DNA of 64,000 bases from Lachnospiraceae bacterium C1.1 (GTDB lineage Bacteria; Bacillota; Clostridia; Lachnospirales; Lachnospiraceae), in NCBI GenBank assembly GCA_030434875.1, contig JAUISW010000001.1, positions 3,486,001 through 3,550,000 on the forward strand, given 5' to 3'. Made by a program: the position numbers and the translations under genes. This document shows, piece after piece, positions 43,253 to 55,839 of the stretch. The stretch's first letter is position 1. Each line of letters starts with the position of its first letter. Under the pieces are notes generated by a model. The model ran no database searches. It saw nothing but the letters and a program-made list of their open reading frames with translations, and was not told the DNA's origin.

Positions 43253-44338
43253 ATGAGCAAGCTGATCAAGGTTGATAAAGATTATAAAGAATGGATTGTT
43301 GAAATATCAAATAAATTTAGGCAAAATCAGCTAAAAGCCGCATTTAAGGCTAACGATTTAATGTTGAGGTTTTACTGGTCAGTTGGCAGGGATATTTCAG
43401 CAATGAGTGAAAAAAATGGATATGGATCGGGATTTTACAAAACTATAAGTGCTGATCTGAAGGATATTTTTCCTGAAGTAAAATCGTTTTCACCCACTAA
43501 TCTTAAATATATGCGTTATTTTTTTGAAATGTATCCGACAGTACAGAATCGTCAACAGTCTGTTGACGATTTGGGAAAGTTAGAGAATCATCAACAAGTT
43601 GTTGACGATTCGGATATGGATGTGATCTTTCATATCCCATGGGGACATCATGTACAGATACTTGGAAAATGTAAGAATAATCCGGATAAGGCATTGTTCT
43701 ATGTGAAAAAGACACTTGAAAACTGCTGGTCAAGAGCGGTGCTTCTCAATTTTTTAGATACGGATTTATATGAGCGTGAGGACAAGGCAGTAACAAATTT
43801 TGCATTGACACTTCCGCCGGTGCAAAGTGATTTGGCTCAAGCTATGACTAAAGATCCATATAATTTTGATTTTTTGACCTTACGTGAGAATTATGATGAA
43901 ACAGAGCTGAAAGATGCGCTTATAGACAAAGTTGGTAAATTTTTGATAGAACTTGGAACAGGTTTTGCATATATGGGTAGAGAAGTCAGGATTGAAGTCG
44001 GCGAAACCGAGAAGTTTATCGATATGCTTTTCTACAATACCAAAAGGCATTGTTATGTAGTTCTCGAAGTTAAAACGGGGAAATTTGACTCTTCATATGC
44101 CGGTCAGCTCGGAACTTATGTTGTCGCGGTAAACCATCAGATTAAGACAGAAGAAGATAATCCAACAATTGGCTTGCTTGTCTGCAAGGATATGGATAAG
44201 ATTGAGGCACAGTATGCACTAGAATCAAGCAGTCAGCCATTAGGAGTATCAAGCTATGAGCTTTCAAAACTTATTCCGGAAGAATTTAAGGGTAGCATGC
44301 CTACAATAGAGGAGATAGAGGCTGAACTTGGGGAATGA
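43253..44338 (+). CDS. DUF1016 PD-(D/E)xK nuclease (YhcG family)
   Basis: 361 aa. N-terminal helical domain (QNQLKAAFKANDLMLRFYWS, VGRDISAMSEKNGYGSGFYK) with winged-helix character, then the IPWGHHVQILGKCKN and ENCWSRAVLLNFLD blocks typical of the family. The C-terminal nuclease has FIDMLFYNTKRHCYVVLEVK, giving D and ExK ligands. Such proteins accompany restriction systems and other mobile genes. Between the two domains the gene carries two 15-19 bp palindromes translated as NRQQSVDDLG and NHQQVVDDSD. SD GGAGAGAGG is good. Confidence 0.88.
   Translation: MSKLIKVDKDYKEWIVEISNKFRQNQLKAAFKANDLMLRFYWSVGRDISAMSEKNGYGSGFYKTISADLKDIFPEVKSFSPTNLKYMRYFFEMYPTVQNRQQSVDDLGKLENHQQVVDDSDMDVIFHIPWGHHVQILGKCKNNPDKALFYVKKTLENCWSRAVLLNFLDTDLYEREDKAVTNFALTLPPVQSDLAQAMTKDPYNFDFLTLRENYDETELKDALIDKVGKFLIELGTGFAYMGREVRIEVGETEKFIDMLFYNTKRHCYVVLEVKTGKFDSSYAGQLGTYVVAVNHQIKTEEDNPTIGLLVCKDMDKIEAQYALESSSQPLGVSSYELSKLIPEEFKGSMPTIEEIEAELGE
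43550..43605. repeat. Two palindromes inside the DUF1016 gene
   Basis: CGTCAACAG-T-CTGTTGACG (43550-43568, perfect) and TCAACAA-G-TTGTTGA (43591-43605, one mismatch if extended to 19 bp), about 40 bp apart. Their unit encodes (Q)NxQQxVDD twice. Confidence 0.85.
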
Positions 44339-44348
44339 AATATAGAAT

Positions 44349-44367
44349 CGTCAACAACTTGTTGACG
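44349..44367. repeat. Third copy of the 19-bp palindrome, upstream of the macro-domain gene
   Basis: CGTCAACAA-C-TTGTTGACG, perfect 9-bp arms, 33 bp before the macro-domain start codon. The position would suit an operator for its C-terminal HTH domain. Confidence 0.85.
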
Positions 44368-44399
44368 GATTTGCATATGCAGATGTGAGGGTGAGTGCT

Positions 44400-45437
44400 A
44401 TGCCATTTCAGATAATAAGGAACGATATTACTAAAGTAAAAGCAGATGCCATCGTGAATACTGCAAATCCGAATGTTGCAATTGGCGGTGGTGTTGATTC
44501 TGCCATATATAAGGCTGCCGGAGCAGACAGACTTCTTCAGGAACGCCAGAAAATCGGCAGATTGGAACCGGGAGAAGTTGCGATCACTCCGGCATTTGAT
44601 CTGGATGTGAATTATATTATACATGCGAGTGGTCCATGGTGGCGGGGCGGTGATCATGGCGAGGCAGAAATACTAAGGCAGTGCTATGATAAGTCGCTGC
44701 AACTTGCTGCTGATAATGACTGTAAATCGATTGCGTTTCCGCTTCTTGCTACAGGAACCTATGGTTTTCCTCAAAAGCTTGGAATTGAGATTGCCGTAGA
44801 TGCGTTTACAGGATTTCTTCAGGAATATGATATGGAGATTTATCTTGTTGTATTCGGTAAGAAGTCGGTAAAAATATCAGGTGAGCTTGTAGAAGAGGTT
44901 CACAGCTACATAGATGATGAATATGTTACCGATGCGCTTGCAGAGGAATATCAGAGTAAAAGTCCTACTAAGGACAGCGAGAATCTTGAAGACTTCGTGG
45001 ACAGTGTTTCATATGTCGGAAGTGCAGCTCCTACAGCTGGTAGAGCTTTATTAAAGGCAACAACAGCTTCTTTGGACGATGCGATAAAGGGAATTTATAA
45101 GGATTCATTTGAAAAGCATCTCCAAATGCTGATAAATAAAAAGGGGTTAAAGAATTCGGAAGTTTATGCATCAGCAAATATTTCAAAGCAGTATTTTTCG
45201 AAGCTTTTGAAGGGGCAGGTTAAACCATCAAAGGGAAAGGTTCTGGCTCTTGCAGTTGGATTACGGCTCAATATGGATGAAACTGTGGATTTCCTAAGAC
45301 TCGCCGGTTACGCTCTGTCACCTATTTCACAGACGGATGTTGTTGTAGAGTATTTTATAGAGCATGAGAATTACAGCGTTATAAAAATAGATATGGTGTT
45401 GTTTGATTACGGATTGGATCCGCTTTCAAATACTTAA
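44400..45437 (+). CDS. Macro domain protein with C-terminal HTH
   Basis: 345 aa. The N-terminal macro domain (about 1-165) has ADAIVNTANPNVAIGGGVD, then IYKAAG, AITPAFDLDVNYIIHASGPW and FPLLATGTYGFP, all ADP-ribose contact segments of the OAADPr deacetylase class. The C-terminal 110 residues carry a Cro/C1-like HTH (KGLKNSEVYASANISKQYFS, KLLKGQVKPSKGKVLALAVG). Binding ADP-ribose and DNA in one chain suggests an ADP-ribose-responsive regulator or a targeted hydrolase. ATG 44400 has GAGGGTG upstream. It is followed by a terminator, then three genes with related themes. Confidence 0.88.
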   Translation: MPFQIIRNDITKVKADAIVNTANPNVAIGGGVDSAIYKAAGADRLLQERQKIGRLEPGEVAITPAFDLDVNYIIHASGPWWRGGDHGEAEILRQCYDKSLQLAADNDCKSIAFPLLATGTYGFPQKLGIEIAVDAFTGFLQEYDMEIYLVVFGKKSVKISGELVEEVHSYIDDEYVTDALAEEYQSKSPTKDSENLEDFVDSVSYVGSAAPTAGRALLKATTASLDDAIKGIYKDSFEKHLQMLINKKGLKNSEVYASANISKQYFSKLLKGQVKPSKGKVLALAVGLRLNMDETVDFLRLAGYALSPISQTDVVVEYFIEHENYSVIKIDMVLFDYGLDPLSNT

Positions 45438-45442
45438 TTACT

Positions 45443-45469
45443 AAGGTCGCCTTCGGGTTGACCTTTTTT
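45443..45469 (+). terminator. Rho-independent terminator
   Basis: AAGGTC..CC-TTCG-GG..GACCTT followed by TTTTTT, 5 nt after the macro-domain stop. Confidence 0.82.
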
Positions 45470-45560
45470 CTTTGCCCAATTGTTATCATTGGATCATCAA
45501 AACAAGTAACTCCTTAAGAAAAAGGATTTGGATGATTTCTATGAAGTTGGAGGTGCGACC

Positions 45561-46244
45561 ATGGGTAAAGGTTTAACAGAGATTATTTATATTTTGGACA
45601 GAAGCGGTTCAATGAGTGGGCTCGAGTTAGATACGATTGGAGGCTTTAACTCTATGATGGAGAAGCAGAAGAAAACCGGAGAAAAAGCAATCGTATCCAC
45701 CGTTCTTTTTGATGATGTGAGTGAAGTTATTCATGACAGAGTGCCGATTGAAAATATCGGAAAGATGACGGATGAACAGTATTTTGTGAGAGGATGCACA
45801 GCTCTTCTTGATGCTGTTGGAGGAGCAATCCATCATATCGGGAATGTTCACAAGTACGCCAGGGAAGAAGACAGACCGGAAAAGACTATTGTTGTGATTA
45901 CTACTGACGGAATGGAAAATGCCAGCAGAAAGTATTCTCGTGAAAAGATTGAAAAGATGGTCAAGAAGCAGCAGAAGAAATACGGTTGGGAGTTCATTTT
46001 CATCGGGGCAAATATAGATGCTTATTCGGAAGCTCAGAAATATGGTATTCGCAAGGACAGGGCTGTTAATTATGTTTGTGATGAGATGGGTACTGCCGGC
46101 GTATTTGCAGGTGTGACACGGGCTGTTTGCTCGGTGATGAAATCAGAAAGCGCGAAGACTGTTGCAAGAGACCTTGATGACAGTGACTGGTGTGGTGAAA
46201 TTTACGAAGATTACCGTAGACGTGGAAACAGGGGAAGGAGATAA
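45561..46244 (+). CDS. von Willebrand factor A domain protein
   Basis: 227-aa cytosolic vWA domain. The metal site (MIDAS) is DRSGSMSG (DxSxS) at the start, with the later Thr in RGCTALLDAVGGAI and the Asp in VVITTDGMENAS. The fold is typical of bacterial stand-alone vWA proteins that assemble partner proteins. No signal peptide. ATG 45561 has GGAGGTG 6 nt upstream. It lies between the macro-domain gene and an ADP-ribosylglycohydrolase gene, and the next gene starts 5 nt later. Confidence 0.9.
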   Translation: MGKGLTEIIYILDRSGSMSGLELDTIGGFNSMMEKQKKTGEKAIVSTVLFDDVSEVIHDRVPIENIGKMTDEQYFVRGCTALLDAVGGAIHHIGNVHKYAREEDRPEKTIVVITTDGMENASRKYSREKIEKMVKKQQKKYGWEFIFIGANIDAYSEAQKYGIRKDRAVNYVCDEMGTAGVFAGVTRAVCSVMKSESAKTVARDLDDSDWCGEIYEDYRRRGNRGRR

Positions 46245-46249
46245 TTGAT

Positions 46250-46678
46250 ATGGATGAAAGAAAGAGTTCGAAATGTGATCATATGAAAAGGGAATGGTCT
46301 AAAGGTGTTGCTGCTTCCGCAATGGAAAAGGCTAATGAATTTGATTCGGATGTCATTAAAGAAAATTCTGAGTATATAAAGAAACTTAGTGAAGCTGATG
46401 CGGCAGAATACTTTATTCTTTTGGAAAATCTTAGGATGGCTGGAGGTGAGGAGGAACGGGCTGATATTCGTGACAGAATGCGTGAAATGAGAAAAGACAG
46501 ATATGAAAAAGATACAGAAAACAAAGGTTACAGCGACAGACAGCAGGAGGCAAATAGAGAACATAGAGTAAAAATAATGGCTATAGCTACGGTAACAATT
46601 AGTGCAACTGGAGGATTTATATATAAATATAGAAAACCAATTGTTAAGGCAATTGAGAAAATAGCAATAAGATCATAA
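46250..46678 (+). CDS. Small membrane-anchored helical protein
   Basis: 142 aa: a charged helical N-terminal region (about 1-100, including EYIKKLSEADAAEYFILLEN and ADIRDRMREMRKDRY), then a single hydrophobic segment (IMAIATVTISATGGFIY, about 108-125) and a basic tail. No signal peptide, so probably a tail-anchored membrane protein with its N-terminus in the cytosol. SD AAGGAGA. It sits between the vWA and ADP-ribosylglycohydrolase genes and may recruit one of them to the membrane. Confidence 0.7.
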   Translation: MDERKSSKCDHMKREWSKGVAASAMEKANEFDSDVIKENSEYIKKLSEADAAEYFILLENLRMAGGEEERADIRDRMREMRKDRYEKDTENKGYSDRQQEANREHRVKIMAIATVTISATGGFIYKYRKPIVKAIEKIAIRS

Positions 46679-46689
46679 GGAGTAAGAAT

Positions 46690-47475
46690 ATGGCAGTTAA
46701 AGGAGCAATTTTAGGAGATATTTTAGGTTCGCAGTATGAGTTTACCAGACCGCAGAATCTGGATTGGAAGAATGTGGTGCTGATCAGTGGTCTTCCAATG
46801 GGATTTACGGATGATACGGTAATGACATTGGCAGTTAAGAAAGCGATTGTTGAAAACAGAAACCTTGTTGAAACTATGGTTGAAGTGGGTAGGAAATATC
46901 CTAACTGTGGTTATGGTGGGACTTTTTTCAGATGGATAATAGGACCGGTACATGAACCCTATAATAGCTGTGGAAATGGTAGTGCAATGAGAACAGCATA
47001 TATCGGAGAAGCATTTGAAGATTATGAGATTATGCAGAAAGTAGCTGCTGACGTTGCCTCAGTTTCTCATAACCATCCTGAAGGAATTAAAGGGGCTGTA
47101 GTTACGTCTACCTGCATTTGGATGGCTAAGCACGGAAGAAGTAAGGAAGAGATTTTTGATTATGTATTGAAAGAATATCCGGTAAGTGATTATGAGTACA
47201 GTATAGGATACTTGCTTGATGAAATGCGTCCGAGATATGAATGGGATGTAAGTTGCCAGGGCTCAGTTCCGGCTGCTATGAGATGCTTCTATGAAAGTAC
47301 TGATTACGAGTCCTTTATCAGAAAAATTTTCAGTCTTCCATGTGACAGTGATACTTTCGGAGCAATCGCCGGAGGAGTGGCAGAAGAATTTTATCATGGA
47401 TTTGGGAATATAGAAGTCGATAGGATTCTGGAGGAGTATTTGGATGAGGAATTGATGGCGATATTAAATATTTGA
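46690..47475 (+). CDS. ADP-ribosylglycohydrolase
   Basis: 261-aa hydrolase of the DraG/ARH fold. The dinuclear metal site is suggested by GFTDDTVMTLAV (conserved TDDT), GAILGDILGSQYEF at the start, NSCGNGSAMRTAYIG, VSHNHPEGIKGAVV and SDTFGAIAGGVAEEFYHG with the C-terminal acidic pair replaced by Ser-Asp-Thr. It removes ADP-ribose from proteins, nucleic acids or small molecules. Together with the macro-domain protein it makes an ADP-ribose processing pair. SD AAGGAG. No ADP-ribosyltransferase gene is visible nearby. Confidence 0.9.
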   Translation: MAVKGAILGDILGSQYEFTRPQNLDWKNVVLISGLPMGFTDDTVMTLAVKKAIVENRNLVETMVEVGRKYPNCGYGGTFFRWIIGPVHEPYNSCGNGSAMRTAYIGEAFEDYEIMQKVAADVASVSHNHPEGIKGAVVTSTCIWMAKHGRSKEEIFDYVLKEYPVSDYEYSIGYLLDEMRPRYEWDVSCQGSVPAAMRCFYESTDYESFIRKIFSLPCDSDTFGAIAGGVAEEFYHGFGNIEVDRILEEYLDEELMAILNI

Positions 47476-47603
47476 TGGTTGATTATATTGGAGTTGGACA
47501 TAAAAAGGCACGGAACATTTGCAAGAATTATGATTCTTTTGTATGATGTGTGGATTGGTGTTGGAGTGTTTGGTTAAAAAACCGTGCATTACTACAATGA
47601 TTC

Positions 47604-47632
47604 TTGGTTTTATTGCTATTATTTTGTATAAT
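47604..47632 (+). promoter_or_regulatory. Promoter of the RiPP cluster
   Basis: TTGGTT, a 17-nt spacer and TATAAT, about 45 nt upstream of the precursor start codon. Confidence 0.6.
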
Positions 47633-47677
47633 ATTGTTAATTGAACTTGAAAAAACAAACATAAGGAGGATGTCCTA

Positions 47678-47776
47678 ATGGAGTATACTAAACCTAAAGT
47701 AATTAATGTTGAGAAGGTTGATGCGGCAAAGTGTGGCGACGGACCTTGTGGAAGACCTTGCGGTCAGAGAGCATGA
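47678..47776 (+). CDS. Cys-rich RiPP precursor peptide, 32 aa
   Basis: Very short gene with a perfect SD (AAGGAGG) and an ATG at 8 nt. The product begins MEYTKPKVINVEKVDAAK, a leader-like charged segment, and ends CGDGPCGRPCGQRA. Cys19, Cys24 and Cys28 lie in a Gly and Pro rich core with the repeated PCG motif. It precedes a radical SAM/SPASM enzyme with an N-terminal PqqD-like recognition domain, the usual layout for thioether or cyclophane forming RiPPs. The modification type cannot be read from sequence. A hairpin follows, which would favour precursor over enzyme synthesis. Confidence 0.85.
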   Translation: MEYTKPKVINVEKVDAAKCGDGPCGRPCGQRA

Positions 47777-47799
47777 TATTTCAATGAAATGAAATTTGA

Positions 47800-47828
47800 G
47801 GACGCAGATTTTTCTGCGTCCTTTATTA
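47800..47828 (+). terminator. Hairpin after the RiPP precursor, possible attenuator
   Basis: GGACGCAG-ATTTTT-CTGCGTCC (8-bp perfect stem) followed by TTTATTAGTTT, 24 nt after the precursor stop and 34 nt before the maturase start. Confidence 0.72.
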
Positions 47829-47862
47829 GTTTATATATCATTAGTGAAAGCCAGGTATACAG

Positions 47863-49203
47863 ATGTATTACAAAATTCGAGAAGATATTTTATATAGAAA
47901 ATATGATGAGTATGGGTTAATAACAGATAATTCAGAATACGGGTACAGGATGCTTAACGACTTAAGACGTAAGCGTCCTGAAAAATATGTTTCTAAAAGC
48001 GGAGCTGTGATGTTGTCTATGTTGGATAGAAATTCTAAGAATATAGATGATATTGTTGAAGAACTCTCAGGGATTTTTGTTGGAGTAGATAAGGAAACCT
48101 TAAAGTGTGATACCATGGAGTTTTTTCAATACTTTGTTGATGAAGGATATTTGAGTTCCGGCAAAAGCATAGATAGTATTAATGAAAGTGATGACAATTT
48201 GCTTGTAGATAAAGAAACAATCAATAGACAAATAGTAATGGAGACTGATGATTGCGATAAAAGTACCTTTAAATCAAGTGAATTTCTTAGGAGTATACAT
48301 ATTGAGGTTGCAAATGAATGCAATGAACGTTGCGTTCATTGCTATATACCTCATAAGTATAAAACGAGTAGCATAGATCCATCGCTTTTTTATAGAGTAA
48401 TTGAAGAAGGGCGGGATATGAATATTATTCATGTCACATTATCTGGTGGTGAACCGTTACTTCATAAAGATATTATCGGATTTTTAAGAAAATGTAGAGA
48501 AATGGATTTGTCGGTTAATGTGTTGTCTAACTTAACGATGTTGTCTGATGAAATCGTTAGTGAGATGAAGAATAATCCTTTGTTGTCGGTTCAAACTTCA
48601 ATTTATGCAATGAATCCTATTATTCATGATGGGATTACAAAACTTGAGGGAAGTTTAGAAAAAACCATACGTGGTGTATATAAGCTTTTAGAAGTAGGTA
48701 TTCCAGTTCAGATATCTTTACCAATAATGAAACAAAACAAAGATAATTTCGTAAGTGTTATTAAATGGGGATATGAAAATAATATTTCTGTAGCGGTAGA
48801 ACCGGTTATTTTTGCATCATATGATCATACGGGAGACAATCTGTGTAATAGGTTGTCATTAGAAGAAGTAGGTAATTCAATAGACTTCGAATTATCGGAA
48901 GGCTATGCTGATATAATCAGTGATTTGGCAAGAGAAAAAGAGGCTCTGAAAAGTGATGATCCAATATGCTCTATATGTAGATATAGTTTTTGTGTTTCGG
49001 CTACAGGTGAAGTTTATCCTTGCGTTGGATGGCAGACAAATGTGATAGGAACCCTTGAAAACCAATCTTTAAGAGATATATGGGAAAATTCTTATAAAAT
49101 AGCGCAATTGAGGAAGATAAAAAGGAAAGATTTTATTGAATGTGTTGATTGTAAGGATAGGGGTTATTGTACAGTGTGCATGATGAGTAATCAATGTCAG
49201 TAA
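47863..49203 (+). CDS. Radical SAM/SPASM peptide maturase, C-terminus replaced by IS insertion
   Basis: 446 aa. Residues 1-100 form a PqqD-like leader-peptide recognition domain (YYKIREDILYRKYDEYGLI, AVMLSMLDRNSKNIDDIVEE). The radical SAM CxxxCxxC is Cys153, Cys157, Cys160, and TLSGGEPLLH follows. The SPASM domain has CSICRYSFCVSATGEVYPC, then ECVDCKDRGYCTVCMMSN. The natural end is cut at codon 443 by an IS4-type element; the last three residues (QCQ) and stop come from the IS end. The native tail survives at 50936-51052 and contains FHC, the expected final SPASM Cys. Activity may be reduced or partly rescued by the Cys from the IS. Confidence 0.9.
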   Translation: MYYKIREDILYRKYDEYGLITDNSEYGYRMLNDLRRKRPEKYVSKSGAVMLSMLDRNSKNIDDIVEELSGIFVGVDKETLKCDTMEFFQYFVDEGYLSSGKSIDSINESDDNLLVDKETINRQIVMETDDCDKSTFKSSEFLRSIHIEVANECNERCVHCYIPHKYKTSSIDPSLFYRVIEEGRDMNIIHVTLSGGEPLLHKDIIGFLRKCREMDLSVNVLSNLTMLSDEIVSEMKNNPLLSVQTSIYAMNPIIHDGITKLEGSLEKTIRGVYKLLEVGIPVQISLPIMKQNKDNFVSVIKWGYENNISVAVEPVIFASYDHTGDNLCNRLSLEEVGNSIDFELSEGYADIISDLAREKEALKSDDPICSICRYSFCVSATGEVYPCVGWQTNVIGTLENQSLRDIWENSYKIAQLRKIKRKDFIECVDCKDRGYCTVCMMSNQCQ

Positions 49204-49394
49204 GTTAAGAGATATGGATTTAATGAAATAACTACAGCCAGCATCATATGCTCGCTACAATAAGACAGAAATACTGCTCTCAGCAAAAGAAGCAGGAGCA
49301 GTGGTCAAGAAATAGGAATTCAGAGCATGACAAACAGACAGATTTATATCTGCCTCAAAGAGATGTATTATATTAGTTGATGGCTAGTCTGTAT

Positions 49395-50726
49395 CTATGC
49401 GGCACGATAAATAAAATATCGCGGTTTTCGGAAATGCGCAGTTTGCAGACGGCTGTATTTCCTGTCCTCCCGTATGGGTATCAGTTCTCTTGCGAGAAGC
49501 GCCATCACATCAATTGGGTTTTCCTCCGCGGAGAGGCGGAGGAAGACCCTGCATATGTGGGCAGCAACGCTGAAATTCACCTTGTAGGAATGTTTCCTCT
49601 TGGCTTTCCTGATGACAGTGCTGTTTATCATCGCCTCAGTCAGGTTATAAGCTATAAGACGGCTCCAGATTTCCTGCATAATAAGTTCTGGTTTGTATGA
49701 ATGGAAATTGCTCAGCCCGATGGTGTATTTCAGCTTCCTGAAGGAGGATTCTATGCCCCATCTGGCATAATAAAGATTTTTTAGACGTTTGGGAGGAAAC
49801 TCATCAGCAGGCAGGTTAGTGACAAGGCATTCATAACTATCATCCGAGAGTTTGATTCTAACCACACGGAATGAGATCGGGTATGTGTCTTTTGAACCAT
49901 ACTCAAGGTAATCAAATGAAGTTGCGGCATCAATGAAGCGTCGATAAGTATCACCGCAGTCGACTTTCGAGGACTGACTCCTCACAAGAGTGACATTTAC
50001 GGTGATATCAAATGTCTCATCATCAGGAAAGTCAAACTTCCCCACGAGGCCTTTTTGGTGGATGTCCTTTGCCCTGAACAGAAAATACTGCTCATTCTGG
50101 ATGACATGGGCCATGTTGTTATAAGAGCAGTAGCCCCTGTCGCCGATATAGATATTTTTAGAGCCGGGTACAACGGGATGACGGTCAACGATGGTGCAGA
50201 AAGCACGGAACTCATCTTTATGGCGGATCGGCTGCAGGAGGGCATCCGTATATAGATTGGAGTCCAGGTCCTGAAAAGCATTGATATGGATGCTGTATGC
50301 TCCCTTGATTGATTTGCCAGGAGAGATGAAATATTCATCCGGAGGAGAATACTTGTCGTGGCTGAAATAAGATGCGGTGGAACCGTCTGCAGCAATAATC
50401 CGGTATCCCGGGTAACTGCCATTGCACGATGGAATTGATCCAGTGAAACTGTCAAATATTTTCTTCATTGCTTCTGGTTTGAGTTTTTCACGTTGCTGGA
50501 AGAACGCGGAAGAAGACGGTGATTGCGTATCCATACCAAAGAAGTCAAGCAGCTCGTTTTTTGTAGCCGAAGAACCTTCGGCAATCAAGAAGCGCATCAG
50601 CTTCCCGGGCGGAAGTTTTCGATCACGTGAAAAATCCTTGGCAGGGTTCTTAGCGTAATCAGAGACAGAAGATGAGACAGAGTCGATTGCAGAATTTAAA
50701 AGATTTTTGATTTTGTCGTGGGTCAT
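49395..50726 (-). CDS. IS4-family transposase
   Basis: 443-aa DDE transposase. The first catalytic Asp lies in YRIIAADGSTASYFS, the second in NIYIGDRGYCSYNN, and the Glu in YYARWGIESSFRKLKYTIGL, the Y-(2)-R-(3)-E-(6)-K signature of the IS4 group. The N-terminal region has SSATKNELLDFFGMD. A strong 15-bp hairpin (50774-50820) and a second inverted repeat lie in its leader and would block read-through transcription from outside. The gene is intact, so the element is probably active or recently active. Confidence 0.93.
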   Translation of the reverse strand: MTHDKIKNLLNSAIDSVSSSVSDYAKNPAKDFSRDRKLPPGKLMRFLIAEGSSATKNELLDFFGMDTQSPSSSAFFQQREKLKPEAMKKIFDSFTGSIPSCNGSYPGYRIIAADGSTASYFSHDKYSPPDEYFISPGKSIKGAYSIHINAFQDLDSNLYTDALLQPIRHKDEFRAFCTIVDRHPVVPGSKNIYIGDRGYCSYNNMAHVIQNEQYFLFRAKDIHQKGLVGKFDFPDDETFDITVNVTLVRSQSSKVDCGDTYRRFIDAATSFDYLEYGSKDTYPISFRVVRIKLSDDSYECLVTNLPADEFPPKRLKNLYYARWGIESSFRKLKYTIGLSNFHSYKPELIMQEIWSRLIAYNLTEAMINSTVIRKAKRKHSYKVNFSVAAHICRVFLRLSAEENPIDVMALLARELIPIREDRKYSRLQTAHFRKPRYFIYRAA

Positions 50727-50773
50727 AAGAACCTCCTTGAAATTGGAACAACGGTTATATTTCCAATTTCAAG

Positions 50774-50820
50774 GGCCGCTCTCGCTACCTCTTATAATTC
50801 AATCAGTAGCGAGAGCGGCC
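50774..50820. terminator. Strong hairpin in the leader of the IS4-type transposase
   Basis: GGCCGCTCTCGCTAC (50774-50788) and its exact complement (50806-50820) around a 17-nt loop. Next to it, TTGAAATTGGAA and TTCCAATTTCAA form a second pair closer to the gene start. Such hairpins protect an IS from impinging transcription. Confidence 0.8.
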
Positions 50821-50935
50821 GCACAATTTCGGTTCTATGTCAACCCCTTTAGGGGAATTTTTTCAAAAAAACTGGGTTAGACCCCCTATGGAATCTAACC
50901 CTTTGAACTTAACTTACTGACATTGGATGAGTAAT

Positions 50936-51052
50936 TCGAACGAAAGTGAGGATGGAGATCCATTTAAGATAAATAAGTTCCATTGTAAAGTGGCTAAATT
51001 AAAACATGAAAAAATTGATTTATACAGACAAAAAATGAAAGGTGAAAATTGA
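50936..51052 (+). pseudogene. Orphaned 3' end of the radical SAM/SPASM gene
   Basis: After removing the IS and one target duplication, AAT (Asn443) joins directly to TCG AAC GAA and the frame continues 38 codons (SNESEDGDPFKINKFHCKVA, then KLKHEKIDLYRQKMKGEN) to TGA 51050-51052. The frame is exact, so the insertion split a working gene. FHC carries the missing SPASM cysteine. Confidence 0.92.
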
Positions 51053-51089
51053 GAAACATTGTAATAATAGATTTAAGGAGATAAATAGT

Positions 51090-53429
51090 GTGGAAAGAAT
51101 ATTAATCAAGGATGCATATGAGAACAATTTGAAACATTTAGATGTTGAGATACCTCTGAATAAGTTCACCTGTGTGACGGGATGCTCAGGATGTGGAAAA
51201 TCCTCATTAGTGTTTGACACATTATATGCTGAAAGTCAAAGAGGTTTTCTTGAAGGTATGACAGGAAATATTTACAGTCAAAAACTGATGAATAAGCCTA
51301 AGGTAATGTCCATAGAAAACTTAAGACCAGCTCTAAACATTTCTCAAAACTATTACAATGTAAATCCCAGGTCAACAATTGGAACTATTACAGAGATATC
51401 GTATTATCTTCGCACTTTGTTCTCGTTGATTAATAGTAATACAGATATAATTGTCCCGGAGAATACTTTTTCATCTAATAATCCGAAATCATTTTGCCCA
51501 AATTGTAATGGGACAGGAATTGAAATGGTAGTTTCATCAGATTTATTGATCCCTGATCATAACAAAACGTTACGAGAAGGCGCCATTCTCTATTATAAGG
51601 GAGCACCGGAAAGTAAAGAACAGAAGTGCCTTGAGGCTATATGTGAGCATTATGATATTGACATTGATAAGAAATATTCAAAGTTAACAAAGAGGGAAAT
51701 AGATATTCTTTTATATACTGAAGAAGTGTTAAGGGTAAAAGTGTCTTATAAGGAAGGAAAAAGACGAAAACAGCATATTGTTTCACTTCAAGGAGTAATT
51801 CCTTTATTAAAGAATCAGATAAAAAATAGCAGTTCGATTACCCAAGCAACTCCGTATTCAAAGTATACCGCCACTACAGTTTGCCATGTTTGCAATGGAG
51901 CACGGTTAGGTAAAAATGCGTTAACATATACATTAGGAGGTATGAATTATAATGAGCTTGAGAGCTTAGAAGTAGAGTCATTATTATCATGGATAAAAGA
52001 ACTAAAAGATGAAAGAATAACAGCGGGGAATAAAGAACTAGTGAAGCAGCTGAAAGATAGTATTATTCAACGGCTTGAGTCACTGATAAAACTAAATGTG
52101 GGATATTTATGTTTGAATCGATCTGTTCCGTCACTTTCTGGAGGCGAGAGACAACGTGTAAGAATTGCTACGCAGTTAACATGCTCTTTGAAAGGATTAA
52201 TATATATATTGGATGAACCTTGTAAAGGTCTGCATCATAGAGATATTGTACGTATCATAGATGCTACAAAAAATCTTATAAAAAAAGGGAATACAGTTAT
52301 AGCTATTGAGCATAATAAGCAGTATATTTCGGAGTCTGATTATAAAATCGAGTTAGGTCCTGTCGGAGGCACTAAAGGTGGATATTTAATTAGCGCGGGA
52401 GAAACTAAAGATAAGGATAGTTTAAAACTTGTATTTAAGACTCCAATAGAGGCAAATGATTATTTTGGAATAAAAAATGTTGTTTTTAGAAATATATATC
52501 AACAGGATGCTGTATTTCCGATTGGTGGGATTACTTGTATTACAGGAGTATCTGGCTCTGGAAAAACTAGTTTAGCAATTGCTACTGCAGAAAGTCTGAA
52601 TAAAAATACAGCTAAGAAATATGGAGATATATATGGTGCAGAATCAATTAAGAGAATAATTACAGTAAATCAATCACCTATAGGAAAAACACCAAGATCT
52701 ACGGTTGTATCTTATTTGGAAATTTTTGATGAGATACGAACATTGTTTGCTAAAACAGATGCTGCCCAAAAATTAAAGTTGTCTCCTTCAATGTTTAGTA
52801 TGAATGTTAAAGGAGGAAGATGTGAATGCTGTCAGGGTACAGGACTTCAAAAAATAGAACTAAATTATCTTCCTAGTACGTATATTATATGCCCTGAATG
52901 TGAGGGGAAAAGATATAATGAAAAAATTCTCTCAGTATCATATAAAGGGAAAACAATACTTGATGTTTTGGAAACGCCTGTGTCAGAGATAATTGAGATG
53001 TTTGCCGATACAAAAAAGGTATATTCCGTTTTAGATAGTATGATTGAATTGGGGTTGGGATATCTGACATTGGGACAAATGTCCATGAACTTATCTGGAG
53101 GAGAGGCACAACGAATTAAGTTGGCGAAAGCTTTAGGCGCGGTGTCAGGTGGAAGAAGCTTATATATTCTTGATGAACCTACGTCAGGATTAAATGATAC
53201 GGATATAAAAAAATTTATTAAGGTATTGTTTTCTTTACAAGGTAAGGGAGAAACGATTCTTATTATTGAACATAACCTTGAGTTTATAGCAAAGGTGTCT
53301 GATTATATCATAGATTTTGGGTTAAAAGGAGGAAGCTTAGGAGGGAAGATTGTAGCACAAGGTAAACCTAGAGAAGTCTTTGAGAATAATGAATCGTCAT
53401 TGTATAAACTTGATGTTTTGAGTGAATAA
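51090..53429 (+). CDS. UvrA-like ABC ATPase of the RiPP cluster
   Basis: 779 aa, shorter than UvrA (about 940). Both ABC modules are present: Walker A CSGCGKSS near residue 31 and GVSGSGKTSLAIATAE near 495; signature loops LSGGERQRVRIA and LSGGEAQRIKLAKALG; Walker B YILDEPCKGLHHR and YILDEPTSGLND. Two zinc motifs (CPNCNGTGIE with CHVCNGARL; CECCQGTGLQ with CPECEGKRYN) are kept. The deletion is in the UvrB-interaction and insertion regions. UvrA paralogues in antibiotic clusters (DrrC-like) give self-resistance to DNA-binding drugs, so this may be an immunity factor. GTG 51090 follows AAGGAG. An alternative in-frame start at 51042 overlaps the orphan fragment. Confidence 0.9.
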   Translation: MERILIKDAYENNLKHLDVEIPLNKFTCVTGCSGCGKSSLVFDTLYAESQRGFLEGMTGNIYSQKLMNKPKVMSIENLRPALNISQNYYNVNPRSTIGTITEISYYLRTLFSLINSNTDIIVPENTFSSNNPKSFCPNCNGTGIEMVVSSDLLIPDHNKTLREGAILYYKGAPESKEQKCLEAICEHYDIDIDKKYSKLTKREIDILLYTEEVLRVKVSYKEGKRRKQHIVSLQGVIPLLKNQIKNSSSITQATPYSKYTATTVCHVCNGARLGKNALTYTLGGMNYNELESLEVESLLSWIKELKDERITAGNKELVKQLKDSIIQRLESLIKLNVGYLCLNRSVPSLSGGERQRVRIATQLTCSLKGLIYILDEPCKGLHHRDIVRIIDATKNLIKKGNTVIAIEHNKQYISESDYKIELGPVGGTKGGYLISAGETKDKDSLKLVFKTPIEANDYFGIKNVVFRNIYQQDAVFPIGGITCITGVSGSGKTSLAIATAESLNKNTAKKYGDIYGAESIKRIITVNQSPIGKTPRSTVVSYLEIFDEIRTLFAKTDAAQKLKLSPSMFSMNVKGGRCECCQGTGLQKIELNYLPSTYIICPECEGKRYNEKILSVSYKGKTILDVLETPVSEIIEMFADTKKVYSVLDSMIELGLGYLTLGQMSMNLSGGEAQRIKLAKALGAVSGGRSLYILDEPTSGLNDTDIKKFIKVLFSLQGKGETILIIEHNLEFIAKVSDYIIDFGLKGGSLGGKIVAQGKPREVFENNESSLYKLDVLSE

Positions 53430-53446
53430 AAAGTACGGAGAAAATA

Positions 53447-54496
53447 ATGGAAGAAAATAGTATTATTAACCAATGTTCAATAGTCTTAACTAGAAACTGT
53501 AACCTTCGCTGCAGTTTTTGTTATGTGAAAGACGCAGGTTATTGTCCAAGTGAATCAATTAGTTACAATAACTTAAAAAAGATAGTTGATTTTTGCAGCG
53601 ATGCGAGTGTTAAGTATATTTTCTTTACCGGAGGAGAACCTTTATTGTATCCTCATCTTAAAGATATTTTAAGATATATTAAAGAAAAAAGGCATTCTAT
53701 AACAACTGCTGTGGCATCTAATGGAATCCTTCTTGAGGATAAGAAGTTTTGTAGAGAGCTTATTGATAGTGGTTTAGATTATATTGATATATCAATGAAG
53801 GGGAAAACGCAAGAGGAATGGGTGAATTTTACAGGATATGATGGCTGTGTTAAACAGCAGAGTGGTATAAGAAATTTATCTGAAATGCAAGTGGATTTTA
53901 CGTGTTCCATGGTGGTAACATTGGAAAATGTATTTTCAGTGTGTGATATTGTTCGGCTTGCATTTGAAAATGGAGCAAAACAATTCTCATTTACTTTTGT
54001 TATTGATAATAACAAAAGTAATAATGAGAATGGAGATTATTTGAGTAGTCATAATCCGTTTAGATTGATTGAATTGTTTATTTCACAGATAGAAGAATTG
54101 AATTCTATAACAGATGATTGGTGGATTGAATATAGCTTTCCTCTTTGTGTTTATACAGAAAAACAACTAAATTTGTTAAAAGGAAGGTTGGCATCTCCTT
54201 GTCAAATACATAAAAAAAATGCGATAACTGTTGATACCCAGATGAATCTATTGCCTTGTGATATGTATTTTGATAGAAAAATTGGGAGGATAGGAGAAGA
54301 TTTTAATAGTATTGAAGAATTTAATGAATGGAGAAAGCATGGAACATATAAGGAGACAATAGATGAAATAAGTCATAGACCTTCTGATACTTGCCTTGGC
54401 TGCACGCATTTAGATGATTGTTTTGGTGGATGTCCAGTCTTATGGAATAATTATTCTTTCGACGATCTATGCTCTTATAAGAGGAGCCAAGAATAA
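53447..54496 (+). CDS. Second radical SAM/SPASM maturase
   Basis: 349 aa. Radical SAM CxxxCxxC is Cys18, Cys22, Cys25 (LTRNCNLRCSFCYVKDAG), followed by FFTGGEPLLYP. The SPASM region has LASPCQIHKKNAITVDTQMN, then LLPCDMYF and SDTCLGCTHLDDCFGGCPVL. It lacks the N-terminal recognition domain of the first enzyme and may rely on that protein for precursor binding or carry out a later step. It starts 17 nt after the UvrA-like gene, so they share an operon. No peptidase or exporter follows. Confidence 0.9.
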   Translation: MEENSIINQCSIVLTRNCNLRCSFCYVKDAGYCPSESISYNNLKKIVDFCSDASVKYIFFTGGEPLLYPHLKDILRYIKEKRHSITTAVASNGILLEDKKFCRELIDSGLDYIDISMKGKTQEEWVNFTGYDGCVKQQSGIRNLSEMQVDFTCSMVVTLENVFSVCDIVRLAFENGAKQFSFTFVIDNNKSNNENGDYLSSHNPFRLIELFISQIEELNSITDDWWIEYSFPLCVYTEKQLNLLKGRLASPCQIHKKNAITVDTQMNLLPCDMYFDRKIGRIGEDFNSIEEFNEWRKHGTYKETIDEISHRPSDTCLGCTHLDDCFGGCPVLWNNYSFDDLCSYKRSQE

Positions 54497-54816: not shown

Positions 54817-55062
54817 TTAGAAAAATGATCTTGGAATAAAATATGACGCTGCCGGAACTTGATCGGCAGCAACGTCATATAGAATTTCCATGGAAACTTC
54901 CAAATATTTACTGAGCCTGATCGCAACATCAAGGCGTGGATCCTGCTTCCCGTTTTCGTACCGGGAGAGAGAATCCTTGCTGATAGAGAGTGCATCAGCT
55001 ACTTCTTTTTGGGTGAGTCCTTTACTCATACGTATTTCTCGAAGATGATTTATAACTGACAT
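54817..55062 (-). CDS. XRE-family HTH regulator
   Basis: 81 aa, essentially a single Cro/C1 helix-turn-helix: LREIRMSKGLTQKEVADALS, ISKDSLSRYENGKQDPRLDV, then AIRLSKYLEVSMEILYDVA. SD GGGGAGG lies about 11 nt upstream of ATG 55062. It lies immediately downstream of the S24-type repressor on the same strand and probably forms one regulatory operon with it and the 93-aa gene. Confidence 0.9.
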   Translation of the reverse strand: MSVINHLREIRMSKGLTQKEVADALSISKDSLSRYENGKQDPRLDVAIRLSKYLEVSMEILYDVAADQVPAASYFIPRSFF

Positions 55063-55098
55063 ATATATAACCTCCCCGATTGAAACGAAATAAATACG

Positions 55099-55839
55099 TT
55101 AGCTTAGTACGCGCCCGAAAGTCCGGAAGGAATCGCTTTCCTTGATTATTATGGGGGCGTATTCTTTATTAAATGATATGAGCTGAGCCTGGTGATTTTC
55201 ATAATGAAGCTGCTTGCAGTAGCATTCGCCGTTCAGCTCGAAAATGCCTATCTGACCTTCTTCAAGAGTTTCCTGCTGATGAACCCAGACAATCTGTCCG
55301 TCTATATATCTTGGCTGCATACTGTTACCGGTGATCCGGACACCAAAGTCTGCATCTGCAGGAATGTTATTGTCTTTACGATCCACTTCTTCATATGCTT
55401 CATTCGCAAGGAAGTTTCCGAGACTGGCAGAAACAGGGTTTTCATATACTCTTATGAAAGATGCCTGTGCCGGGAAGTCTACGATCTGGGAAGAATCTGC
55501 TTCATATAAAACAGGAGCTTCTTTCAGATACTCACCGTTGTTGTATCCCTCCAACAGAGAAATATAATCCATCACTTTTTTGCGGCCTTCTTCATTAAGA
55601 TTTTTTATCGGATTGTAGCTGTTCTCACCGAAATATGCTTCCATCACGTCAGGAACCTTCAGAATCTTACATATATTTAAGAAGACAGTGACACTGGGTT
55701 CACAGACATTCTTTTCCCAGGTGGATATGGAGCGGAATCCGATTTCGATTCCGTTCTTTTTTAGTTCTTCAGCGAGCTTTGGCTGTGTAAGTCCTGCCTT
55801 TTTGCGGAATGAGGCTAGGAGTTCTCCTACATCTTTTAT
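55099..55839 (-). CDS. XRE/S24 LexA-like repressor, non-ATG start
   Basis: About 247 aa. The first region is an HTH (DVGELLASFRKKAGLTQPKL, then GFRSISTWEKNVCEPSVTVF). The C-terminal S24 peptidase-like domain has GVRITGNSMQPRYIDGQIVW with the nucleophile Ser and ECYCKQLHYEN with the Lys base, so autocleavage is possible. No ATG, GTG or TTG precedes the HTH. The frame opens after TGA, and GAGGG lies 8 nt before ATA 55839 (ATC 55842 is the alternative). A later GTG at 55647 would remove the whole DNA-binding domain. Confidence 0.8.
   Translation of the reverse strand: MKDVGELLASFRKKAGLTQPKLAEELKKNGIEIGFRSISTWEKNVCEPSVTVFLNICKILKVPDVMEAYFGENSYNPIKNLNEEGRKKVMDYISLLEGYNNGEYLKEAPVLYEADSSQIVDFPAQASFIRVYENPVSASLGNFLANEAYEEVDRKDNNIPADADFGVRITGNSMQPRYIDGQIVWVHQQETLEEGQIGIFELNGECYCKQLHYENHQAQLISFNKEYAPIIIKESDSFRTFGRVLS

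Follow-up and report, generated by a model that had tools for sequence, protein, structure and literature searches.

A UvrA-like ATPase linked to a radical SAM peptide operon in gut and rumen bacteria

The genome of Lachnospiraceae bacterium C1.1 contains, within the 64,000-nucleotide stretch analysed here (contig JAUISW010000001.1, positions 3,486,001 to 3,550,000; hereafter the window), four linked genes: a short precursor peptide, two radical SAM (S-adenosylmethionine) proteins, rSAM1 and rSAM2, and a UvrA-like ATPase, UvrAL. The evidence supports regarding them as a cassette for a RiPP (ribosomally synthesized and post-translationally modified peptide) of which we found no description in open papers. 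The order precursor, rSAM1, UvrAL, rSAM2, on one strand, recurs in distant hosts; because the whole order recurs, the set is more than a chance arrangement.

An earlier note on this DNA suggested that the product acts on DNA and that the ATPase gives immunity. Judged by anatomy and by analogy with Ecm16 and DrrC, this is the best-supported reading. Put fully, and with a probability of about 0.45, the genes would form a mobile biosynthesis-plus-protection cassette, in which a cross-linked peptide binds DNA and UvrAL strips it from the DNA of the producer.

Passages of PMC10192343 and PMC10413001 describe UvrA-like self-protection in actinobacteria whose DNA-binding products are non-ribosomal or polyketide compounds. 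The former passages report that Ecm16 confers echinomycin resistance without UvrA, UvrB, UvrC or UvrD; that its ATPase is required; and that its insertion domain is needed for DNA binding, with echinomycin-bound DNA held more tightly than DNA. The latter report that UvrA-like genes mark DNA intercalator clusters in actinobacteria; their network includes a RiPP class, for which the passages covered name no product. Like Ecm16 and DrrC, UvrAL adjoins biosynthesis genes, has lost the UvrB-binding domain, and keeps the insertion domain. Unlike the clusters of those proteins (echinomycin, daunorubicin), the UvrAL set encodes a 32-residue ribosomal peptide and is found mostly in gut and rumen hosts. 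In the present case the UvrA-like ATPase keeps a fixed place next to a peptide that is itself encoded by a gene, and the set, at about 5 kb, is compact enough to be transferred in one piece to a laboratory host. Two questions become testable: whether a radical-SAM-modified ribosomal peptide can target DNA, and by what means a UvrA without its UvrB-binding domain removes a ligand.

Conservation and distribution of the cassette

A scan of named genomes that used two rSAM1 patterns, and was not exhaustive, yielded 37 loci. Twenty-five (L020-L044) were taken as the family at an identity of at least 40%, L044 by a fragment; the other twelve (L045-L056) encode distant radical SAM proteins and were left out. 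Two forms occur: type A, to which UvrAL and rSAM2 belong, and type B, which consists of a precursor (C..NS[KRQ]P[SC]GRPC) and rSAM1 only. Gene completeness was judged by tblastn with the L036 genes. The earlier note proposed searching for the precursor family beside UvrA-like genes; full-length UvrAL is present in 21 of the 25 relatives' loci, as it is in the window. All four genes are whole in 18 of the 26 loci (L020-L033, L035, L036, L037, L041).

The distribution is sporadic. Within the same family, close rSAM1 genes occur in two of 299 genomes (G000, and G069 at 59%; L037 lies on the same contig as L014 of G069), and seven others have distant radical SAM proteins only. Of 48 genomes from the genus, among them 22 with a completeness of 90% or more, one has the cassette. 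In a phylum sample it is in two of 398, the second (G478) being type B with a split rSAM1. Hosts include Eubacterium, Butyrivibrio, Blautia, Roseburia, Clostridium magnum, Lachnoanaerobaculum, Oscillospiraceae, and Gemmiger, as well as Christensenella, Selenomonadaceae, Synergistaceae, Atopobiaceae, Anaerobiospirillum, and a Bacteroidales bacterium. Judged by record title, most of these hosts are gut or rumen bacteria, some uncultured and some cultured.

The distances of the three enzymes agree. Across 21 loci, Mantel correlations are 0.799 (rSAM1-UvrAL), 0.685 (rSAM1-rSAM2), and 0.691 (UvrAL-rSAM2), values that none of 2000 permutations reached. For four pairs, nonsynonymous divergence (dN) is 0.13-0.30 and synonymous divergence (dS) is at least 1.7 or saturated; UvrAL has the lowest dN in each. 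The enzyme genes are under strong purifying selection and share descent. UvrAL might instead be a spare repair gene, set beside a RiPP operon by accident, and type-B operons do lack it. The same position in 21 of 25 loci from distant hosts, the agreeing gene distances, and the purifying selection make this extremely improbable.

The earlier note saw no transporter or protease, and the cassette indeed has neither. Flanks were surveyed at L020-L037 and L039-L042: 107 open reading frames (ORFs) of at least 100 residues, at most six per locus and none from L033. Helix-turn-helix (HTH) family HTH_3 is the commonest Pfam family (7), followed by phage integrase and HTH_31 (3 each), and no transporter or protease family recurs among the 25 listed of 98 flank families. 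Some loci lie near integrases, transposases, or restriction-modification, BREX or Abi genes, as judged partly by eye.

Such surroundings bear on a different role, in which UvrAL is an effector: a retained modified peptide, as ligand or cofactor, would direct or switch UvrAL on DNA, in phage or plasmid defence or as a regulator. The absence of an exporter, the sporadic occurrence (1 of 48 genus genomes), the mobile and defence neighbours, and the greater conservation of UvrAL than of the other two enzymes are all in keeping with it. Against it, rSAM1 has no relatives in phage records and viral contigs, and each defence family appears in only one to three of the 107 flank ORFs (25 of 40 families listed; no control flanks). 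Moreover, the stronger defence-model matches of UvrAL, to mad3 and mad8 of PADLOC, are not specific: ordinary UvrA scores higher on the same models, and this assignment was rejected. We regard an effector role as unlikely.

The earlier note knew of no described class with this combination, and our searches of open papers found none; subscription papers and preprints lie outside the scope of those searches. The core strings have no match in the open papers searched. In the parts covered, the main text of a Bacteroidales RiPP survey (PMC10352776) has neither the core nor UvrA, and PMC8326336 has neither UvrA nor GRPC; PMC12291112 has UVRAG in a reference only, and PMC4513790 has uvrA as a typing gene only.

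UvrAL, a UvrA without a UvrB-binding domain

UvrAL is present as the earlier note described it, with 779 residues from a GTG start (795 if the upstream GTG at 51042 is used). It resembles canonical UvrA in being a double ABC ATPase with zinc-type cysteines and an insertion domain. The predicted structure (mean predicted local distance difference test score, pLDDT, 80.2; predicted template-modeling score, pTM, 0.73) has UvrA structures as its best matches; Ecm16 follows at rank 37, with a template-modeling (TM) score of 0.85 by target length. All eight UvrAL proteins inspected have Walker A, Walker B, signature, and H-loop motifs in each half, although those of L025, L041, and L042 have SLSDGE rather than SLSGGE as the first signature.

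A difference lies between residues 114 and 123 of the window UvrAL. This interval spans 10 residues in two UvrAL proteins and 147-153 in four ordinary UvrA proteins; it spans 8 in an Ecm16 relative and a Bacteroidales protein, and 38 in an Atopobiaceae protein. By sequence, UvrAL is without the UvrB-binding domain and so departs from canonical UvrA. In lacking this domain while retaining both ATPase sites, UvrAL agrees with the class II UvrA proteins Ecm16 and DrrC.

A tree was built from 22 UvrAL, 10 ordinary UvrA, and 3 UvrA2-like proteins; L116 was left out, its longest ORF looking wrong-strand. UvrAL forms a single clade (support 100/100) on a stem of 2.26 changes per site. The three UvrA2-like branches are long and their placement is unsure. 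One of them, from Streptomyces specialis, scores 1126 bits to Ecm16 (7sh1) and stands in for it in the tree. UvrAL itself, whose clade is separate from this relative, scores 347 bits to Ecm16 versus 584 to an ordinary UvrA.

Within the insertion domain, the stretch YKxGKRRKQH has a net charge of +5 to +7 in all 34 UvrAL proteins compared; in 13 other UvrA proteins, three with gaps there, it is -1 to +4. UvrAL proteins have a mean identity of 0.61 over the insertion domain and 0.50 over residues 241-300; for the ATPase parts the figure is 0.65-0.83.

Two proteins in the C1.1 genome have a UvrA DNA-binding domain: UvrAL and a separate ordinary UvrA. Among 19 genomes searched, ten have a full UvrAL (G741, G743-G749, G754, G755) and one a broken copy (G742); all 11 have another UvrA-type match too. 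With two candidates scored per genome in the 398-genome phylum sample, full-length UvrAL is found only in C1.1 and in none of the 397 others; the three other scored rows are ordinary UvrA.

Alternatively, UvrAL might be unrelated to DNA and help to make the peptide, using ATP to assist the iron-sulfur enzymes as a chaperone or release factor. It does occur with rSAM2 and not in type B, and its model has a distant fold match, at rank 40, to a methyl-coenzyme M reductase activation complex protein. Nevertheless, the full UvrA architecture, the insertion domain, the zinc-type cysteines, and the extra basic stretch point to DNA, and such a helper role appears markedly improbable.

Two unlike radical SAM enzymes

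The window rSAM1 has the parts that the earlier note assigned to it: besides its radical SAM and SPASM domains, it has a PqqD-like amino terminus (PF05402; 25.9 bits against a cut-off of 23.4). PF05402 is also above cut-off in the homologue P0006, and just below it in type-B proteins (22.2-22.8 vs 23.4). Thus a short leader-plus-core precursor adjoins a maturase with a leader-binding domain, the gene arrangement of radical SAM RiPPs (RaS-RiPPs). For the second enzyme, previously called radical SAM/SPASM, Pfam supports only the first half of the description: besides its radical SAM core, rSAM2 has a carboxyl terminus rich in Cys that does not match the SPASM profile at E 0.01.

The P0006 model of rSAM1 (mean pLDDT 69.0; residues 110-171 below 50) has SuiB and SkfB as top fold matches. 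By sequence, the nearest solved structure to rSAM1 is SkfB; those nearest to rSAM2 are the archaeal tetraether synthase, then SkfB and 5wgg, which we take to be CteB. The domain plan of rSAM1 (PqqD-like, radical SAM, SPASM) and its Cys-containing core peptide resemble the SkfB, CteB, and SuiB systems. These likenesses would fit peptide cross-linking; they do not tell the bond type. Unlike sactipeptide, ranthipeptide, and streptide systems, the cassette has two unlike radical SAM enzymes, no transporter or protease, and a UvrA-like partner. Scores to the sactipeptide and ranthipeptide maturase families SkfB, AlbA, StsB, PapB, and Clo7bot are far under their curated cut-offs. More broadly, rSAM1, in its interrupted form (see below), is below cut-off in each of the 25 listed of 61 NCBIfam families, and rSAM2 in each of the 25 listed of 83.

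The family looks large by numbers of matching proteins, which are not numbers of cassettes: at E<=1e-20 rSAM1 has 1,977 matches, with 59-99% identity among the 120 listed, and at E<=1e-60 the plasmid type-B enzyme has 3,849. Matches of the rSAM proteins to the viperin models of PADLOC (36.9-62 bits, without a control set of other radical SAM proteins) cover the radical SAM core only. Two proteins, P0255 and P0257 (825-826 residues), are natural fusions of two tandem type-B-family radical SAM/SPASM units.

Precursor peptides and an intergenic hairpin

The 32-residue precursor reported earlier is present, with the carboxyl terminus given there (Table 1). Elsewhere in the genome one further sequence matches the precursor (E 0.28), but on our reading it is part of an ABC transporter gene and spurious. 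Of the loci L020-L044, 23 of 25 have a related precursor, 22 being type A and one type B; in the other two, the precursor is frame-shifted (L039) or was not found (the fragment locus L044).

Comparison of 23 type-A precursors (window, L020-L038, L040-L042) with seven distinct type-B precursors (L043; L057; L058, to which L059-L061 are identical; L127-L130) identified the constant elements. [CS]GRP is invariant in all 30 and is preceded by Pro in 29, the exception being L035. The first Cys is constant, and no precursor lacks both of the later ones: the second is Ser in L034 and six of the seven type-B precursors, and the third is absent in L029 and L038. Since the first Cys is always retained with the second or third, this smallest kept set suggests one indispensable cross-link.

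Between the precursor and rSAM1, the window and 22 other type-A loci encode a hairpin with a T-rich tail. In an alignment of 23 rows, placed by eye in a way that favours structure and leaving out L038, where no such stem was seen, 97.1% of cells pair and seven of nine pairs have changed on both sides. Shuffled alignments scored as high in none of 500 trials for four of five measures, and in 7 of 500 for the fifth. A simple terminator scan finds a terminator in 16 of 26 gaps (1.2 expected), and an Rfam search of 47500-47900 has no match. The hairpin is probably an attenuator-like terminator that limits readthrough from the precursor gene to the enzyme genes. The idea of a cassette-specific RNA element was dropped, for the model also finds similar hairpins elsewhere: six other, lower-scoring places in the genome at E<=0.011; a hit of 35.6 bits that lies some 7 kb away from the cassette of L042; and further hits in L021 and L025.

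Type-B relatives

Type B shares with the window set the leader motif YxKP, the core P[SC]GRPC, and the rSAM1 family, its rSAM1 being 40-49% identical to that of the window (33% for the amino-terminal piece of L057). Unlike the window set, type B has no UvrAL or rSAM2 in the sequence at hand. Among ORFs of 12 type-B loci, blastp with UvrAL finds none at E 1e-5 in the available flanks (about 1.5 kb on each side for L126-L130, of which L126 repeats L043; 3 to 9 kb for plasmid loci), and rSAM2 finds only generic radical SAM likeness (25-31%).

Conjugative plasmids carry type B in records from E. coli (5), Salmonella (1), and Photobacterium (1), of which four of the seven were inspected, although the plasmid locus is unmatched in the E. 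coli genomes collection. A recombinase gene is upstream of the operon in plasmid loci L058, L060, and L061, and the plasmid precursor is missing from the gene tables shown. Type B is also in G478 and in five of 344 genomes of the order Bacteroidales (G739, G953, G1060, G962, G939).

A sixth Bacteroidales match, G812 (L131), carries a third precursor type, MKKYQKPKVVAKNNPQGSYAAGCPAKGTGTSTYCRSCERSS, beside a radical SAM protein 32-33% identical. Other micro-precursors with a KP leader motif beside radical SAM genes (L015, L016, L017, L063) apparently belong to different RiPP families, with cores including KHTNCSGTN and QCRCSGSSTHIVIAQ. A Thiodictyon plasmid (L062, 6749-12826) has PqqD-family, radical SAM, amidohydrolase, YcaO, and TfuA genes in a row, likely a YcaO/radical SAM hybrid RiPP cluster.

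UvrAL and rSAM2 thus belong together to type A, and either may decay alone (L034, L038). Because they co-occur in type A only, the product of rSAM2 is suggested to be what UvrAL answers to. The earlier note held that precursor homologues without the UvrA-like gene would count against its proposal. Type B provides such homologues; its core differs, and rSAM2 is absent as well.

Damaged loci and proposed function

Four loci keep a whole UvrAL despite a damaged synthesis gene or precursor: the window (rSAM1 cut by an insertion sequence), L034 (rSAM2 reduced to 15%), L039 (the frame-shifted precursor), and L042 (rSAM1 in two frames). UvrAL is broken in three of 25 type-A loci, each with synthesis or core altered: L038 has a 68-residue UvrAL remnant, a precursor core ending in GRPR, and both radical SAM genes whole; L040 has rSAM1 and UvrAL in pieces; L044 has only fragments of rSAM1, UvrAL, and rSAM2. 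(L043, without UvrAL and rSAM2, is type B.) The chance of all three broken copies falling within the seven damaged of 25 is 35/2300 = 0.015, under an assumption of independence that fails. The pattern agrees with UvrAL as protection.

A related possibility is a toxin-antidote (addiction) module, in which the peptide is kept inside the cell, UvrAL acts as antidote, and the mobile element gains by being stably inherited. The lack of exporter and protease, the mobile setting, the sporadic distribution, and the damage pattern are compatible with this. Retention of UvrAL after synthesis damage, in the window and three other loci, nonetheless fits immunity generally rather than addiction specifically, and we know of no addiction module whose toxin is made by two maturases. 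We consider addiction rather improbable.

For biosynthesis coupled to protection, the following steps can be proposed. The PqqD-like domain of rSAM1 would bind the leader through the YxKP motif, and rSAM1 would install a first cross-link, presumably a thioether, from cysteines of the core CG(x)xPCGRPC. In type A only, rSAM2 would add a second modification. The small Gly/Pro/Arg peptide would then bind DNA. UvrAL, unable to recruit UvrB, may recognize peptide-bound DNA through its basic insertion domain and strip the peptide with ATP, as for Ecm16, protecting the maker without excision repair. Because the cassette has no exporter, the peptide probably acts inside its maker or leaves by a host transporter.

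A more specific version concerns the DNA site. The PxGRP or [CS]GRP core recalls the AT-hook core PRGRP (RGRP). Because the invariant [CS]GRP resembles this core, the mature peptide might sit in the minor groove as a radical-SAM-locked mini DNA-binder, with UvrAL as a dedicated ATP-driven RiPP remover. The cassette would then be a novel pair of genotoxin and antidote that mobile elements have carried among gut bacteria; we think this version doubtful.

Several observations weigh against the peptide-stripping proposal. UvrAL does not group with the Ecm16 relative (apart at 100/100). A cassette without an exporter is unusual for an antibiotic. Pfam searches with three precursors at E<=10 have no match, leaving an AT-hook profile without support. 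Type B has the same P[SC]GRPC core and rSAM1 family but no UvrAL, so that a peptide with this core does not by itself require the ATPase. The loci behind the damage pattern are few, seven and three, and not independent: L044 and L040 are in general decay; L039 and L042 may reflect draft-assembly errors; and the short core of L038, whose maturases are whole without UvrAL, was called altered by judgement.

The window locus and its insertion element

The earlier note overlooked an IS4-family insertion sequence (IS) between rSAM1 and UvrAL (Table 1). The rSAM1 reading frame ends after MMSN at the IS; the remainder resumes from 50926 on, in another frame. The cysteine of the lost tail (C461 of P0006) is invariant in all 18 rSAM1 proteins of the alignment. 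Because the IS removes this last invariant cysteine, the window rSAM1, and hence the cassette copy of this strain, is probably inactive. The insertion itself is probably recent, since the protein collection holds an uncut 481-residue homologue, P0004, 99% identical to the window rSAM1.

Table 1. Features of the cassette and its insertion element (window coordinates)
Feature	Position	Strand	Remarks
Precursor peptide, 32 aa	47678..47776	+	Leader MEYTKPKVINVEKVDAAK, core CGDGPCGRPCGQRA; predicted leader/core border
Hairpin then T-rich stretch, attenuator-like	47798..47823	+	Between precursor and rSAM1
rSAM1, radical SAM/SPASM maturase, N-terminal PqqD-like leader-binding domain	47863..49203	+	Native sequence only to 49191
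Left 10-bp target duplication, GATGAGTAAT	49182..49191		IS boundary
IS4-family insertion element, 1,734 bp, perfect 18-bp inverted ends	49192..50925
IS4-family transposase, 443 aa	49395..50726	-	NF033592, 161.9 bits vs cut-off 115
Right 10-bp target duplication copy	50926..50935		IS boundary
Separated rSAM1 3' remainder, 41 aa, holds FHC cysteine	50927..51052	+	Matches L036 homologue residues 440-475
UvrAL, UvrA-like double ABC ATPase, 779 aa	51090..53429	+	Lacks the UvrB-binding domain, retains the insertion domain
rSAM2, second radical SAM protein	53447..54496	+	Leader-binding domain not found

Upstream of the cassette (43253-47475) is a run of accessory genes that looks like a variable island: a YhcG-type PDDEXK nuclease (matching candidate defence family PDC-S02), an ADP-ribosylglycohydrolase, a Macro-domain protein with a weak HTH match, and a weak VWA-like protein. 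Just downstream, on the minus strand (54817-55647), a Cro/C1-type HTH gene adjoins an S24 (LexA/CI-like) peptidase gene, a pair that is phage-repressor-like.

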